In this document: positions 1-6,084 of the stretch, in pieces
Numbering within the stretch: position 1 is the first letter of the stretch
Layout: every line of letters begins with the position of its first letter
DNA from: Pseudomonadota bacterium
Lineage (GTDB): Bacteria > Pseudomonadota > Gammaproteobacteria > Steroidobacterales > Steroidobacteraceae
Reading direction: 5' to 3'
DNA length: 6,174 bases
NCBI GenBank assembly: GCA_021805275.1
Contig: JAJZFQ010000190.1
Location: 1-6,174 of the forward strand
The notes under the pieces: generated by a model
What the model saw: only the letters and a program-made list of their open reading frames with translations
Told to the model about the DNA's origin: nothing
The model's database searches: none
Translations under genes and position numbers: made by a program

Positions 1-618
1 GATCCCGTGACAAATCCGAAGGGATGGGCAGTCCGGACGATCTCTGATGTCGTTGTCGCTGTCGAATATGGCACCAGCACGAAGGCGGGCGAGGGTACGG
101 TTGGCGTTCCCATGATTCGAATGGGAAACGTAGACGTGCAAGGTCGACTAAAACTGCATGATCTAAAGTACGTCGAGCTGGAAGAGGTGGACCGACGGAA
201 ATACAGGTTGCAGCCTGGAGACATCCTGTTCAATCGCACCAACAGCAAAGAACTGGTTGGAAAGACTGGGATATGGCGCTCGGATCGTGATGCAGTGGCG
301 GCATCTTATTTCATCCGGGTCCGCGTCAATGAAACGGTGCTTGCGCCGGACTACCTTTGGGCGTTCATGAACACGCCTCACATGAAGAAGACGCTATTCG
401 GTATGGCTAGGGGAGCAATAGGGCAGTCCAACATCAATTCGCAAGAGCTGCGCAGCATTCCGTTGGCGGTGCCGTCCCTAGCCTTGCAACGCACGTTTTC
501 GGCTCGCGTTTGCGAATGCCTAGAACTGGAACAGTACCAGGAAGTTGCCATTGGTGGTTCCGAGTCTGTTTTTCAGTCCCTTCTGGCGGGGGTGTTTTCG
601 GAGCGACAGGTGACATGA
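1..618 (+). CDS. hsdS: Type I restriction-modification specificity subunit (HsdS), 3' portion
   Basis: HsdS recognises the target sequence for the HsdM methylase and HsdR nuclease of a type I system. The frame is open to the window edge. It begins DPVTNPKGW, which resembles the junction often seen at the start of the second target-recognition domain, so the GTG at 7 is probably an internal valine and the true start lies upstream. Visible in the 205 residues are the domain opening KGWAVRTISDVV (7-18), MIRMGNV (38-44), QPGDILFNR (71-79), GQSNIN (141-146), the IPLAVPSLALQ stretch (153-163) leading into the helical spacer, and a terminal SLLAGVF (193-199). This fits one recognition domain plus the C-terminal conserved helix. 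The stop TGA overlaps the next start (ATGA). hsdM and hsdR are not in the window. Family assignment is firm; completeness and specificity cannot be judged. Confidence 0.88.
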   Translation, partial: DPVTNPKGWAVRTISDVVVAVEYGTSTKAGEGTVGVPMIRMGNVDVQGRLKLHDLKYVELEEVDRRKYRLQPGDILFNRTNSKELVGKTGIWRSDRDAVAASYFIRVRVNETVLAPDYLWAFMNTPHMKKTLFGMARGAIGQSNINSQELRSIPLAVPSLALQRTFSARVCECLELEQYQEVAIGGSESVFQSLLAGVFSERQVT

Positions 619-1529
619 TTCCCGACTATCAAACTCTCATGCGTCTAGTTCTCGAATGCACCTCATCCGGAGAAGTGCGTATCAGCGATGTTGTTGAGCT
701 GCTTGCCAATAAGCTCGGTTTAACCGTTGAGGAACGCGGCATAATTCTGCCGAGCGGGAAACAGACCCGGTTTGCTAATCGCGTCAACTGGGCGAAGAGT
801 TACTTAAAACAGGGCGGCCTTGTCGAAATTACCGGGCGCGGGCGCTTCAAAATTACCGACCGAGGACGCGCCGCCCTGGCTGATAAGGCCGCGACCATCA
901 ACAACGCATACCTCGCTCAGTTCGAAGAGTTCCAAAGCTTTAAGAGGAGGGAAACTGAGGCAGATGCAAAGACACCCGCGACGCAAGGGACATTAGAGAC
1001 CGAATCGACCCCGGATGAAGCCCTGCGCCGCGCCCATGGCGCCATCATGGGCGCGCTATCCGCTGAGCTGCTGGATCGAGTCCGAAACGGGACCCCGGAA
1101 TTTTTCGAAAATCTGATCGTCCAACTTTTGATCGCCATGGGCTACGGTGGCACCTCTGAGGAAGCCGGGCGCGCAATTGGTCAGAGCGGCGATAACGGTG
1201 TGGACGGTGTGATCGACCAAGATCCACTGGGCGTCGATCAGATTTATGTGCAGGCCAAACGATACGCCGAAGGCAACAATATCGCTGCGGGTGCCATCCG
1301 GGACTTTTACGGTGCTCTGAGTTTGAAGAGAGCGCACAAGGGAATTTTCGTAACCACCTCGGCGTTTAGCCCGGCGGCCACCGAAACCACGCGTGGACTG
1401 GGGTCTCGTATTGTCTTGATCGACGGACCTCACCTGGCGCGACTGATGATCCGATATAACGTGGGGTGCCGGGACGAGGAGATTATTCACTTGAAGAAGC
1501 TCGATGAGGATTTCTTTGAGCCGACGTGA
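615..1529 (+). CDS. mrr: Mrr-type restriction endonuclease (type IV, modification-dependent)
   Basis: Mrr cleaves foreign DNA carrying methylated bases. This start gives 304 residues, the length of the E. coli protein. The open frame extends upstream to 510, but that part overlaps hsdS in another frame and is not protein-like. An N-terminal winged-helix Mrr_N-like domain spans about residues 1-90, with the wing near GGLVEITGRGRFKITDRG. A charged linker follows (about 91-150), then the Mrr_cat PD-(D/E)xK domain (about 155-285): E165 in PEFFENLIVQLLIAMGYG, the SGDNGVDG loop with D197, and QAK at Q213-K215. All expected catalytic residues are present, so it looks functional. Its ATG overlaps the hsdS stop by four bases, which implies co-transcription and translational coupling. 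A host type I methylase and a modification-dependent nuclease must be compatible, so its target is probably not the HsdS-directed mark. Confidence 0.93.
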   Translation: MIPDYQTLMRLVLECTSSGEVRISDVVELLANKLGLTVEERGIILPSGKQTRFANRVNWAKSYLKQGGLVEITGRGRFKITDRGRAALADKAATINNAYLAQFEEFQSFKRRETEADAKTPATQGTLETESTPDEALRRAHGAIMGALSAELLDRVRNGTPEFFENLIVQLLIAMGYGGTSEEAGRAIGQSGDNGVDGVIDQDPLGVDQIYVQAKRYAEGNNIAAGAIRDFYGALSLKRAHKGIFVTTSAFSPAATETTRGLGSRIVLIDGPHLARLMIRYNVGCRDEEIIHLKKLDEDFFEPT

Positions 1530-2407: not shown

Positions 2408-3115
2408 TTAGCGCTGAACAGAGTTCGCGGAGTTCGCGAAAAGGTGTGTCGGTGGATGGCTGTTGCGATCCCCGGTAGTTTTTCGGGATTTCTTCAAGGG
2501 TTCTCCGATGAGCAATTCGCCCGTCATGAGTTGAATGCCCTGAAGGTCGATTCGCGCAATCTTTGCGCTATCCTCGGTATTCGCGGCGCGAAGTAGCGCT
2601 CTCCAGAACGCCGGGTGATCGGCCCACCGCGGGCGGAGGTAGGGGTGAACGTGCTCGGCAATCGAGTCAATGGCGGTGACGGGAAGCGTGAGCAGGAGCT
2701 CGACGACTGATTCGTCGAGACCGAGGAGAATAGGGGCGGAGCGCCGATCGGCGCAGACGGCCCGCCAGGCGGCGATGAGCGTTGCGCGCGTGAGGGGCAG
2801 CGCAGTTTCTCGCGGATAGGCAGGTCGAAGCGCGGGTTTACGGATTCTGCGCTCGGGATCATGCGCAATCGCCTGCCACCAGGACCCATTATGGAAGTCG
2901 AGATCCAAGAGCAGGAACGCACGCGTCGCGGCTCGATCGCGGCTGGTCGGGGTGCTCGCGAGAAGCTCCCGTTTCACGGTGCTCACCAGCGAAAGCGGCT
3001 GATCTGTCCTGCGGTGAGCCGCCTGCGCGAGGAGATCGATGGCACGACGATTGAGATCGTGCAACGCCGGAAGCGAGAAGGCGGCTGAGAGGTCCATGTC
3101 GGCTGCCGGGCGCAT
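2408..3115 (-). CDS. FlhD-like putative regulator, uncharacterised family
   Basis: About 235 residues with the ATG at 3115; a GTG at 3139 and an ATG at 3097 are alternatives, and no start has a clear ribosome binding site. I preferred 3115 because 3139 lies inside an inverted repeat and upstream of 3115 a promoter fits well. It resembles a widespread proteobacterial family usually annotated hypothetical: LHDLNRRAIDLLAQAA near the N-terminus, NGSWW (76-80), WADHPAFWRALLRAA (164-178), DLQGIQL (190-196). Residues 131-154, from LGLDE to AIDSIAE followed by LRPRW, line up without gaps with E. coli FlhD from LGINEE to MVKLAE followed by HFRF. This suggests a FlhD-type fold with an extra N-terminal region; FlhD itself is about 116 residues. 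It is divergent from the DUF6502-like gene, and a FlhC-like gene lies downstream of that. The FlhD link is inference. Confidence 0.72.
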   Translation of the reverse strand: MRPAADMDLSAAFSLPALHDLNRRAIDLLAQAAHRRTDQPLSLVSTVKRELLASTPTSRDRAATRAFLLLDLDFHNGSWWQAIAHDPERRIRKPALRPAYPRETALPLTRATLIAAWRAVCADRRSAPILLGLDESVVELLLTLPVTAIDSIAEHVHPYLRPRWADHPAFWRALLRAANTEDSAKIARIDLQGIQLMTGELLIGEPLKKSRKTTGDRNSHPPTHLFANSANSVQR

Positions 3116-3135
3116 AGGCTCGAATGATCCGAGTG

Positions 3136-3158
3136 ACACCGTAATTGACAGACGGTGT
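3136..3158. promoter_or_regulatory. Perfect 7-bp inverted repeat around a TTGACA, candidate operator
   Basis: ACACCGT (3136-3142) and ACGGTGT (3152-3158) are exact inverse complements separated by nine bases, and the spacer contains TTGACA (3145-3150). A + strand -35 box inside a dyad would be blocked by a bound dimer. The matching -10 is weak (TTACAC after 16 bases), so the + promoter is only possible, while the dyad itself is certain. Confidence 0.5.
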
Positions 3159-3172
3159 AAAAAGTATTACAC
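3155..3172. promoter_or_regulatory. Perfect 6-bp inverted repeat over the minus-strand -10, candidate operator
   Basis: GTGTAA (3155-3160) and TTACAC (3167-3172) are exact inverse complements with six bases between. The repeat shares four bases with the neighbouring ACACCGT dyad and covers the proposed -10 of the FlhD-like gene. Two regulators, or one at two sites, could compete here. Confidence 0.5.
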
Positions 3173-3191
3173 GAATAAAAAGTCATGGCAA
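3164..3191 (-). promoter_or_regulatory. Candidate promoter of the FlhD-like gene
   Basis: Read on the minus strand, TTGCCA (3186-3191, five of six to consensus) is followed after 16 bases by TAATAC (3164-3169, three of six). Transcription would start near 3157, leaving a leader of about 40 bases before the ATG at 3115. This fits the start chosen for that gene and would exclude the GTG at 3139 only weakly. Confidence 0.4.
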
Positions 3192-3261
3192 ATTTTGGAT
3201 TTCGGTGCATTTGTGCGCGGACGCGGGTGGGGTGCGTCATGTTTGAGGGCGTTGAATCACG

Positions 3262-4149
3262 ATGAGCGATGCGCTGAAGCGGGCGGTTCAGTCGGCGCTT
3301 ATGCGGCTCCTTCAGCCGCTGGCGCGATGGCTGCTCGATGCGGGAATCGGGGTCGGGGAGTTCGTCAGCCTTGTTAAGGTGGCCTACGTGAGAGCGGCAG
3401 TGGAGCAGGGCCGATCGGTGGCCGGGAGCGTTCGGCCCAATATCTCCCGCATTGCGGTGGTGACGGGACTGACGCGTGTCGAGATCGCTTCCCTGATTGA
3501 GCGGGGCGAGGCGGAGGCGCCTGCAAGCGATCGAGGGCGGCAGCGGGCGGAGCGGGTGCTTTCGGCATGGTGGACGGATCCGGAATTTCTCACGGCGAAG
3601 GGCGAGCCCGAGGTTCTGCGCCCAAAGGGGCCCCGGCGGTCGTTCGCGGCGCTTTGCGAGCGCTACAGCGGTGAGAAACGCTCGGCGCCGGTTTTGCGGG
3701 AGCTGCTACGCGTCGGTGCGGTGCGAGAACTCGCGAATGGTCGGCTGCAGGCGCTGAGTCGTAGCTGCACGATGGTTCGATGGGATCCGGCGGGCGTGCA
3801 GGCCGTCGGTGAACAGTTGCGGGATCACTGCACGACGCTTTTACAGAACCTTCATCAGCCAACGCGAACGCGCTTTGCGCGTCAGGTGGTCAATGCGCAG
3901 CTTGATCCGCGTCATGCGCCGATGCTAATTCGCGAGATCGAGCATGCGCTTGGCGTGCGAACTGATGCTTTGCACGAAACCCTCAACGATCCGAAGCACA
4001 CCGCGCCGGCTGGCGCCCCGGCGATGCGGCTCGGGGTGGGGGTGTATGTTTTCGAAGAAGCGCCCTCGGGGGAGGGCGCTTCTCGCGAGAGCGAATCGAC
4101 GGCTCCATCTGGAAAGGTGAGGTCGGCTCGAAGGAAACGCCGGACGTGA
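3262..4149 (+). CDS. DUF6502-like protein with HTH-like segment (paralogue A)
   Basis: The 295 residues have the length and layout I associate with the DUF6502 family. An N-terminal helical part, LLQPLARWLLDAGIGVGEFVSLVKVAYVRAA (16-46, given here by its ends LLQPLARW and YVRAA), is followed by an HTH-like stretch ISRIAVVTGLTRVEIASLI (61-79). Then come AWWTDPEF (102-109), RSFAALCERYSG (126-137), KRSAPVLRELLRVGAV (139-154), and a C-terminal LGVGVYVFEEAP (257-268). The tail is basic. ATG 3262 has GAGGG 12 bases upstream, rather far. The gene heads a + strand cluster and is divergent from the FlhD-like gene. The family's function is unknown; the HTH suggests DNA binding. The next gene is a clear paralogue that lacks the HTH. 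Confidence 0.85.
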   Translation: MSDALKRAVQSALMRLLQPLARWLLDAGIGVGEFVSLVKVAYVRAAVEQGRSVAGSVRPNISRIAVVTGLTRVEIASLIERGEAEAPASDRGRQRAERVLSAWWTDPEFLTAKGEPEVLRPKGPRRSFAALCERYSGEKRSAPVLRELLRVGAVRELANGRLQALSRSCTMVRWDPAGVQAVGEQLRDHCTTLLQNLHQPTRTRFARQVVNAQLDPRHAPMLIREIEHALGVRTDALHETLNDPKHTAPAGAPAMRLGVGVYVFEEAPSGEGASRESESTAPSGKVRSARRKRRT

Positions 4150-4364
4150 TTCGGGAGCGATAAAAACTCAAAGCGAGGACGTATGGAGCCAGGACGTGGG
4201 TGGACACCCTCTGGTGTCCAGGTGGTCTATTGCTCGCGCGAACCGGCTTGGCTGGGCCGCGGATCGCGGACTTCGGGAGTGCAGTCGGCGGCGAGCGTCG
4301 CGCGGTGTCGGTGGACGGATGCTTGTCCCATAGCCATCCGAGAGACGCGCACAGGGGGTGTCCG
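4150..4364 (+). other. Leader region between the two DUF6502 paralogues
   Basis: The 215 bases hold a perfect hairpin (4201-4220), three copies of a GGTGTC-type motif (4213, 4304, 4357), a short direct repeat of AGGACGT (4176-4182 and 4191-4197), and a possible 61-codon leader ORF. I see no good sigma-70 promoter, so read-through from the upstream gene is plausible. Confidence 0.45.
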
Positions 4365-4368
4365 GTGA
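4183..4368 (+). CDS. Possible leader ORF coupled to paralogue B
   Basis: A 61-codon frame begins at ATG 4183, with GAGG four bases upstream. Its TGA at 4366-4368 overlaps the GTG start of the following gene (GTGA), the classic coupling geometry. The peptide is Arg-, Ser- and Trp-rich and matches no family I know. It repeats SGVQ twice because of the GGTGTC repeats. Codon third positions are not clearly coding-like, so it may be a regulatory uORF or chance. Confidence 0.3.
   Translation: MEPGRGWTPSGVQVVYCSREPAWLGRGSRTSGVQSAASVARCRWTDACPIAIRETRTGGVR
4201..4220. repeat. Perfect 8-bp inverted repeat, 4-base loop
   Basis: TGGACACC and GGTGTCCA flank CTCT. The stem is perfect and GC-rich but no T-run follows, so it is not a standard terminator. 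It shares ACACC...GGTGT half-sites with the dyad at 3136-3158, at a different spacing. An operator or RNA hairpin role in controlling the second paralogue is possible. Confidence 0.5.
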
Positions 4369-5198
4369 AACGAGCGCCCCAGCCGCGCAATGTGCGTCGA
4401 GTTCCTCGCGCGGACCCCGATGAATCTACCGTCCTCATCGAGTCGCTCACCGTCGAAGCTCTGGACCGGATTGTGGCCTTGCTGGCTCGCAACGGCGTTG
4501 AGCAGGGTGCGATCGAGGGTGCCTTCCGACGCGCGTGTGACAAGCATTCACGGCGGCGCCGGTCGGTGTCGTCGGACTCGCTTGCGGCGCAGTACGAGGC
4601 GGTGCTCTTGCTGGCCGCGTGGTACACCGATTTAGAGTATCTCGATCCCGAGGGGCGACCGCTTCGCCTGCCGCTCACAGGGGCAGCGCCCTCGCTGCAC
4701 GCGCTCATCAAACGAGTGGGTCTTAAGCGCTCGGCGCGGGATATCGTGCGGTATCTGGAGCGCGTGAAGGCGATTCGGTTCGTGGAACAGGAGTATGAGC
4801 CGCTCCGGCGCGCCAAGGCGCTCCTCGGTGCCGGACGTCTGGCGAATCGCGAGACGCTGCGGATGGTGGTGAGATTACTGCGCTCGATCGATGAGCGCTG
4901 TGCGCAGCGTCGCGCCGCGAGCCTCGATGAGATCAACGTGGTGACCGCCCTCGAGAGCACAGAGATCCCCGTGCGATTGCGCAGCGTGTGTCGGGCGCAG
5001 GTGACTCGGGACATTCAGCAGTTCCTGAGGGAGCTGGAATCCCGGATGCTGCGCTACGAGCGTGCTCGGGTGCGTGGGGAGCCGCTGATGCACATGGGGA
5101 TTGGGGTGTTTCACTTCGAGGAAGCGCCCCCCGAAGGCCCGTGCCGGGTGCGCACGCGTGCAAAGACTCGGACTGTGGTGGACCGGCGGTCGCGGTGA
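4365..5198 (+). CDS. DUF6502-like protein lacking the HTH segment (paralogue B)
   Basis: With the GTG at 4365 the protein is 277 residues. An earlier in-frame GTG at 4200 would add 55 residues that look nothing like the paralogue. AGGGGG lies just before 4365 at good spacing. Landmarks match paralogue A in order: NGVEQGAIEGAFRRAC (43-58), AWYTDLEY (85-92), SLHALIKRVGLKRSA (110-124), and the C-terminal MGIGVFHFEEAP (244-255). Between the first two landmarks B is about 29 residues shorter, and the gap falls on the HTH-like stretch of A (about 52-80), replaced by a basic HSRRRRSVSS. B therefore probably does not bind DNA the same way and might modulate A by shared oligomerisation; that is inference. 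Ten bases separate it from the FlhC-like start. Confidence 0.82.
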   Translation: MKRAPQPRNVRRVPRADPDESTVLIESLTVEALDRIVALLARNGVEQGAIEGAFRRACDKHSRRRRSVSSDSLAAQYEAVLLLAAWYTDLEYLDPEGRPLRLPLTGAAPSLHALIKRVGLKRSARDIVRYLERVKAIRFVEQEYEPLRRAKALLGAGRLANRETLRMVVRLLRSIDERCAQRRAASLDEINVVTALESTEIPVRLRSVCRAQVTRDIQQFLRELESRMLRYERARVRGEPLMHMGIGVFHFEEAPPEGPCRVRTRAKTRTVVDRRSR

Positions 5199-5208
5199 GG
5201 GTGCTCAC
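5195..5208 (+). promoter_or_regulatory. Hairpin over the FlhC-like ribosome binding site
   Basis: GTGAG (5195-5199) and CTCAC (5204-5208) pair perfectly around GGTG, and the hairpin ends directly before the ATG. The stem contains the stop codon of the upstream gene (5196-5198) and part of the Shine-Dalgarno GAGGG (5197-5201). A ribosome finishing paralogue B would open it, so translation of the two genes is probably coupled. Confidence 0.45.
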
Positions 5209-5832
5209 ATGCGTGTCTCCGAAGATCGGTATTCTCGGGATCTCAGAAGCCTGGCACTCGGGCATCGGTTGATCCGGCACGAGGTGCGGACCCGCTGGAT
5301 CTGCGCCATGACGGGCCTCACGGATGAGCGGGTACGCAATCTCCTGCACTCCTACGGGGTGACGGCGCTACCGAGACACCGCGGTGCGGCCCCGACGAGC
5401 TGCGCGGTGTTCTTTCGGCTGGCGCTGCACCCGGAAGCCTCGGCGCTGGCGGCCTTGGCGCGCATCTGGAAGCTCGTACCGGCCAGTCCGGTACGAAACG
5501 CCCGCAAGGTGCTGCCGAGTCTGGAGTGGGGGGAGAGCCTGTGTGAGGCATTCGAGTTCTTCCACGCCGTGGTGCCGCGCGGAGCGATCACCGGGGATCA
5601 GTTCATTCTCTTGACGCTCGCCCTCGCGGAGGGAAAGCTCGCGGTCGCGCACTGCGCGCAGTGCCAGGCCGCGATCCTGATCGACCCGCTGGAGGTACAG
5701 CTGCTCAGGTGCCGGATGTGCGCGCAGCCCGCACCGCGCGGGCCAAGGCGCCGGAACCCGAAGGCGTCCGACACGTCGGAGCCGCTGCTCGGGGGGGATC
5801 CAGGAACGGGTGATCAGCAGTCCCTTTTTTAG
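5209..5832 (+). CDS. FlhC-like transcriptional regulator
   Basis: FlhC is the DNA-binding, zinc-containing partner in the FlhD4C2 activator. The 207 residues show the FlhC plan: an N-terminal helical part (YSRDLRSLALGHRLIRHEV), TGLTDERVRNLLHSYG (35-50) in the place of TQLSRGRLIKLYKEL of E. coli FlhC, a central helical part, and the zinc site HCAQC (C149, C152) and CRMC (C168, C171). The Cys pairs are spaced almost as in E. coli FlhC. The tail is basic, then acidic, ending QQSLF. ATG 5209 is chosen over an upstream ATG at 5101 because TGAGGG sits seven bases before it and residues before it are not FlhC-like. It closes the + strand cluster and converges on the XRE gene. Away from flagellar genes, such FlhC homologues often regulate mobile elements. 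It could be its own family rather than true FlhC. Confidence 0.85.
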   Translation: MRVSEDRYSRDLRSLALGHRLIRHEVRTRWICAMTGLTDERVRNLLHSYGVTALPRHRGAAPTSCAVFFRLALHPEASALAALARIWKLVPASPVRNARKVLPSLEWGESLCEAFEFFHAVVPRGAITGDQFILLTLALAEGKLAVAHCAQCQAAILIDPLEVQLLRCRMCAQPAPRGPRRRNPKASDTSEPLLGGDPGTGDQQSLF

Positions 5833-5850: not shown

Positions 5851-6084
5851 TTAGGCCTCCTCGGCTTCGCGCAGGATCGCCGACAGGGGCGTCTTGAGGC
5901 CCGTCGCGACGCGTTCGAGGGAGGAGAGTCTGAGGTCTTTCTTTCCACGCTCGATCAATCCGTATTGCGCCCGGTGCATCTCAATCTCGTCGGCGAAGCC
6001 TTCCTGGGTCCAGCCGGCCGCTTCTCGGCGGCGCCGGATGATCTCACCTAAGCGCTCCGGCAGCAGGCGGCGTGTGCTCATCAT
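5851..6084 (-). CDS. XRE/Cro-type HTH regulator, 77 residues
   Basis: A single HTH_3-like domain fills the protein: RLGEIIRRRREAAGW (11-25), TQEGFADEIEMHRAQYGLIERGKKD (26-50, the recognition region, with TQEGFADEI and YGLIERG as its ends), LRLSSLERVATGL (51-63), and a short acidic tail. Length and layout match small autoregulated repressors, including restriction-modification controller proteins. ATG 6084 is followed at once by a second ATG (6081), so either could be used. There is no good ribosome binding site, but a -10-like TAAAGT ends six bases before the ATG, which suggests a leaderless mRNA. Its stop is 18 bases from the end of the convergent FlhC-like gene. The regulated genes are not visible. 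Confidence 0.85.
   Translation of the reverse strand: MMSTRRLLPERLGEIIRRRREAAGWTQEGFADEIEMHRAQYGLIERGKKDLRLSSLERVATGLKTPLSAILREAEEA

Follow-up and report, generated by a model that had tools for sequence, protein, structure and literature searches.

A possible mobile-element regulatory module in a gammaproteobacterium: divergent FlhD-like and FlhC-like genes around a DUF6502 pair

What does an FlhDC-like pair control when its two genes lie on opposite strands with two DUF6502 genes between them? The question is raised by contig JAJZFQ010000190.1 of Pseudomonadota bacterium (assembly GCA_021805275.1; Gammaproteobacteria, Steroidobacteraceae), of which a stretch of 6,174 nucleotides, called the window here, was analysed as a whole. 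An earlier note, made from the sequence alone, described an FlhD-like gene (D) on the minus strand, then two DUF6502-like genes (F and F') and an FlhC-like gene (C) on the plus strand. This order is present in the window, and a gene for an Xre-type protein after C extends the set from the four genes of the note to five. On balance we favour the reading that these genes, D< F> F'> C> <Xre, are the regulatory module of an integrative conjugative element (ICE), or of its remnant, in a gammaproteobacterium, with D/C as the activator. The features of the window are as follows.

2408-3139, minus strand: D, FlhD-like subunit, 243 aa, with an FlhD-like domain at about residues 108-215 and an N-terminal extension at about 1-107
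3262-4149, plus strand: F, DUF6502 protein, 295 aa, PF20112 match
4365-5198, plus strand: F', diverged DUF6502 paralogue, 277 aa; the GTG start is our choice
5209-5832, plus strand: C, FlhC-like subunit, 207 aa, with CxxC..CxxC
5851-6084, minus strand: Xre-type helix-turn-helix protein, 77 aa, kept beside C in four loci of the window type
3155-3172, between D and F: perfect inverted repeat GTGTAA-N6-TTACAC, candidate operator
3163-3191, minus strand: sigma-70-like promoter match for D, TTGCCA-17-AATACT, a consensus match only
1-618, plus strand: HsdS fragment
615-1529, plus strand: Mrr

D and F point away from each other across a gap of 122 bases. F, F' and C are co-oriented, with 215 bases between F and F' and 10 bases between F' and C. 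Across D (201 codons), F, F' and C, six comparisons of the window with loci L001 or L002 put dN/dS at 0.12-0.29. Neither an Rfam match nor a tRNA was found in the window.

C is homologous to FlhC over its length, and profile, profile-profile and structure tests agree on this. Single-sequence searches of the window C in Pfam, NCBIfam, PHROGs and PDB did not reach FlhC, and PF05280 gave nothing for it at E up to 1; it is classed as FlhC-like. Among the 44 rows of A2, 15 matched PF05280 with an E of 1 or less, the strongest at 1.9e-4. Alignments of D (A3, 66 rows) and C (A4, 79 rows) were selected from the relatives found in a large protein set (35 D, 132 C relatives) and in 50 genome loci. The A4 profile placed two FlhC chains on top in the PDB (E 2.6e-8 and 2.9e-8). 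With hhalign, C matched FlhC at E 1.3e-15 and probability 98.6, and the crosswise control of C with FlhD gave probability 0.2; the FlhD and FlhC reference alignments are small, with five rows each, and two rows of each (L124, L125) are weaker FlhD-family matches taken as FlhDC-like. Residues C149, C152, C168 and C171, a putative zinc site, are invariant in 79 of 79 rows of A4, and the predicted model of C has the FlhC fold. The FlhC-like call of the earlier note, which rested on CxxC..CxxC and colinear helices, is thus borne out.

The same three kinds of test agree that D is homologous to FlhD, with the domain at residues 108-215. The window D itself did not match PF05247 (FlhD), and its single-sequence searches in the four collections used for C did not reach FlhD. 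PF05247 is listed as a precomputed match for 16 of the 35 D relatives in the protein database, and the scan of A1 rows gave weaker matches (3 of 29 with an E of 1 or less, the strongest at 0.0093). The A3 profile placed three FlhD chains on top in the PDB (E 4.7e-6, 0.0011 and 0.0028), and hhalign gave E 1.2e-5 and probability 81 for D with FlhD, against 6.3 for the crosswise control with FlhC. Each protein matches its own counterpart in the profile-profile check that the earlier note had proposed, and the crosswise controls do not. Profile and structure comparison place an FlhD domain in D, while a Foldseek search with the whole predicted D model alone was not significant. The segment LGLDE..AIDSIAE, from which the note had argued, aligns without gaps to LGINEE..KLAE of FlhD, and LRPRW of D sits opposite CHFRF of FlhD. 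The FlhD-like call holds on the A3 profile, hhalign and the structure comparison.

D and C share the FlhD domain and the FlhC fold with CxxC..CxxC, respectively, with FlhDC of E. coli and Cupriavidus necator, and differ in other points. E. coli FlhD has 116 aa without an N-terminal extension, whereas D has 243 aa with one, of about 107 residues, in which no match was noticed; D is not a single-domain FlhD of ~116 aa and is classed as an FlhD-like domain protein. A long D subunit is not unique to the window, because AcaD has 22.8 kDa (PMC4207636). The flhD and flhC genes of E. coli are neighbours on the same strand, whereas D and C lie on opposite strands.

The earlier note regarded the divergence of D and C as a separation of partners. 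C is accompanied by D on the opposite strand in 47 of 50 genome loci, and 46 of these have no DUF6502 gene between the two; the 47 include L039, where the D match is weak (18.7 bits, E 2e-4, clipped by the contig end), and at E 1e-4 the count is 46 of 50. Where no D was seen (L002, L038, L040), the contig begins no more than about 1.2 kb from C. The divergence is thus real, but it is the rule in the family and not a split operon. Forty-eight loci (L003-L050) have a common core neighbourhood, meaning that each has at least one neighbour family in common with five or more other loci. By eye, the neighbours are ABC-transporter, NudC-like, TamA/TamB-like, ArgR and ArgG genes, and DUF6502 occurs in none of these 48 stretches. 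Outside the core set, C and D stand side by side on the same strand in L090 and L094. The search for conserved co-occurrence that the note had suggested shows that the D/C neighbourhood recurs; special to the window type is the DUF6502 pair inserted between D and C, plus Xre after C.

The order D-F-F'-C was found in one piece only in the window and in L001, where D is clipped by the contig end. D and F of this type were seen only in these two, and F', C and Xre are common to the window, L001, L002 and L109; the contigs of L002 and L109 are cut and show F'-C. L089, which L110 extends and which is counted together with it, has a window-like D at the contig end (317 bits). Xre relatives stand directly after C in the window, L001, L002 and L109 (4 of 70 loci scanned) and were not found in the other 66 (phmmer E 1e-4). 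In the C tree, these four form one clade (support 100/99) apart from the core clade.

The mobile-element setting was examined in 20 non-core loci: the 18 D regions top-ranked by profile A1 after G001, minus the core locus L103, plus L109, L001 and L002. VirB genes were present in five of them and recombinase genes in nine others (14/20), and AlpA-like genes in 10 of 20. The markers had been chosen by eye from L091, L092, L098, L100, L101 and L105, so these six match by construction; the 48 core loci, with none of the three kinds of gene by the same search, serve as control. Recombinases were confirmed by Pfam in L092, L098, L100, L101, L102 and L105, and in L095, L104 and L097, where the recombinase is a piece of 127 aa, the call depends on BLAST to the markers. 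In L091, D/C stand ahead of VirB4-B5-B6-B8-B9-B10-B11-VirD4 (Pfam), and relaxases were confirmed on contigs of G160 and G046. L109 carries F', C and Xre, then probable cargo, and then VirB2, VirB3 and VirB4 at 13240-14959 (Pfam); it is through this locus that the window type is linked to transfer genes. In L092, L098, L100, L101, L102 and L104, a tyrosine or serine recombinase and an AlpA-like gene accompany D/C with no VirB in view.

Other loci weigh against an element setting. L089, L093, L096, L099, L001 and L002 have neither VirB nor recombinase genes, although an AlpA-like gene is present in L093 and an IS110-type transposase in L089. L095 and L097 have D without detectable C, and D of L095 adjoins a Mutator-family transposase. 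No transfer genes were recognised in the window, L001 and L002, stretches of 4-6 kb. A search of viral contigs confirmed no relative of D or C, and a search of plasmid records gave neither. The mobile-element link that the earlier note suggested is thus seen for the non-core relatives, with VirB2-B3-B4 in L109, but does not extend to the core copies.

The known systems help to place the pair. AcaCD of IncA/C plasmids and SetCD of SXT/R391 ICEs are likewise FlhC-like plus FlhD-like pairs outside flagella on transfer elements, where they activate tra genes (PMC4207636, PMC4344509). Their negative regulators lie close to them, Acr1/Acr2 for acaDC and SetR for setCD (PMC4207636, PMC4344509). The acaDC and setDC genes are side by side (PMC4207636, PMC10838148), whereas D and C of the window are divergent with the DUF6502 pair between, and the side-by-side arrangement of the SetCD/AcaCD type is absent there. 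BisDC of ICEclc activates ICE transfer as a heteromer; it shows similarity to FlhC, and its regulatory circuit includes an AlpA gene (PMC7423338), which the AlpA-like genes in 10 of the 20 non-core loci recall. BisC has DUF2857, and BisD carries a ParB domain, while an FlhD domain was not detected in it (PMC7423338); D and C of the window match neither. As separate observations, a DUF2857 protein in L187 looks by eye like an FlhD-like part fused to an FlhC-like start, and PF11198 touches the FlhD-family match of G306 (26.8 bits, under the cut-off).

By analogy with these systems, D and C would form an FlhDC-like heteromeric activator, which may switch on the transfer genes of the element as SetCD and AcaCD do. 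F, F' and C possibly form one transcription unit, and C might then be co-produced with the DUF6502 proteins, while D would come from the other strand. The 18-base repeat between D and F is perfect and overlaps, on the D side, the sole sigma-70-like match of the scanned region, for which a mean of 0.5 matches is expected by chance. L001 retains its inner 16 bases, TGTAA-N6-TTACA, and the repeat was found in no locus besides the window and L001 (four other rows were the same contig refetched). The repeat over the promoter-like site might be an operator for F/F', Xre or D/C itself. Xre is a candidate repressor, and F/F' and Xre may restrain or time the switch through the divergent promoter in the manner of SetR or Acr1/Acr2.

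F is a clear member of DUF6502 (PF20112, 100.3 bits, cut-off 27). F', in its longer frame 4200-5198, scored 18.6 bits, under the same cut-off, yet was picked up by the profile iterated from F, and we therefore regard it as a diverged relative. Against the PDB, the DUF6502 profile found designed helical repeats first and then weak regulator rows. F may contain a helix-turn-helix: profile positions 60-102 met a LacI-family regulator at E 0.15 and positions 60-92 a prophage protein at E 0.66, neither significant. The idea that DUF6502 is a relative of D or C was rejected on comparison.

Tandem DUF6502 genes occur in many of the same genomes, and 113 of the 200 genomes drawn from the family of G001 contain F'-like genes. 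Of 20 fetched regions (the top 18 among the new ones plus two seen before), 18 had neither D nor C in the stretch, unlike the window; the two with D or C were the already known L178 (contig of L002) and L179. In L105, which is the same locus as L179, the order is C< D> F> F'>, with an integrase and an AlpA-like gene nearby, and by eye another Xre-like gene. Since most DUF6502 pairs occur apart from D/C, their association with D/C in the window type and L105 stands out. F relatives were found on 8 of 72,556 plasmid records. Tandem arrays of DUF6502 genes, with as many as four in L108, were also seen in L107, L108 and L160-L177 in chromosomal-looking settings, with aroK/aroB-like and acyl-CoA ligase-like genes by eye around L107/L108. 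In the literature searched, which left most subscription journals outside its coverage, no paper mentions 'DUF6502', and flhC, flhD and Steroidobacter occur together in no single paper. If the element reading is true, it would give the first functional setting for DUF6502, and FlhDC-like transfer switches would extend to a lineage with none found in that literature.

The 200 draft genomes drawn from the family of G001 were also used for comparison with flagella. C, core or not, was in 187 of 200, D in 144 by the less sensitive profile A1, and flagellin in 125; absences of C are soft because the genomes are drafts. Flagellin was in 118 of 187 genomes with C vs 7 of 13 without (Fisher p 0.56), and C was kept in 69 of 75 flagellin-less genomes (counted by hand, core and non-core C pooled). 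FlhDC drives flagellar genes, whereas the presence of C in this family does not track flagellin; D/C as the family's flagellar switch was rejected on this ground, and a setting outside flagella, as the earlier note had in mind, is supported. The core loci examined are syntenic, with the FlhD-like gene divergent from the FlhC-like one, and they would point to a core FlhDC-like regulator that does not track flagellin and whose regulon could be mapped directly. In G014 and G023, eleven flagellin-domain matches each were seen, partly in tandem.

These numbers bring in the strongest alternative, that D/C is FlhDC-like but activates a chromosomal island or a host regulon instead of conjugation, as the core pair may do. 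The synteny of the core pair, its zero count of VirB, recombinase and AlpA genes and the wide presence of C irrespective of flagellin agree with it, but the window-type C forms a clade apart from the core clade and in L109 it shares a contig with VirB2-B3-B4, and we hold this alternative to be rather unlikely. We rate as quite improbable that the element D/C mimics the host core D/C, swaps subunits with it and reads or overrides the host switch. G002 does hold window-type and other C (at C71, C262 and C428) and G113 holds D at C79 and C24, with C428 and C24 taken as core by score alone, but identity between the window C and each of the 35 core-locus rows in A4 is 30-41%. Least probable of all is that the module serves a defence island as a control circuit and times the adjacent restriction genes, with Xre as a controller-type protein: the HsdS fragment and Mrr at 1-1529, the match of Xre to PADLOC control-protein profiles (E 5.9e-11) and a defence-like pair in L002 (3319-5177, a GmrSD_N gene then a RiboL-PSP-HEPN gene, ~1.3 kb past Xre) speak for it, but short Xre-type proteins match many profiles and the module is kept while the genes outside it differ between the window, L089, L002 and L109.

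The regulatory module of an ICE, with D/C as its activator, remains our preferred reading. When the C tree is rooted on FlhC, the core clade is nested inside the mobile lineages (moderate support, 90/72 and 82/58), though long-branch attraction is possible because the outgroup branch is very long. This hints weakly, from sequence comparison, that the core pair may descend from a mobile-element regulator by domestication; a core pair not tied to flagella, with such a possible descent, is the wider surprise. As a tentative speculation, this FlhDC-type branch, so far unreported, might have begun as a transfer activator of elements and been domesticated once as a widespread core regulator of the family, not tied to flagella, while elements would carry rivals of it to this day, that of the window being restrained by the DUF6502 pair in the role of dedicated co-regulators.

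Two minor observations were made beside these. L117 has three consecutive ORFs at 10802-15653 on the minus strand, recombinase-trio-like by eye, on a contig with type IV secretion system genes. In the window, a 65-aa ORF at 1931-2128 on the minus strand resembles a SWIM zinc finger weakly, scoring 17.1 bits vs a cut-off of 19.6.

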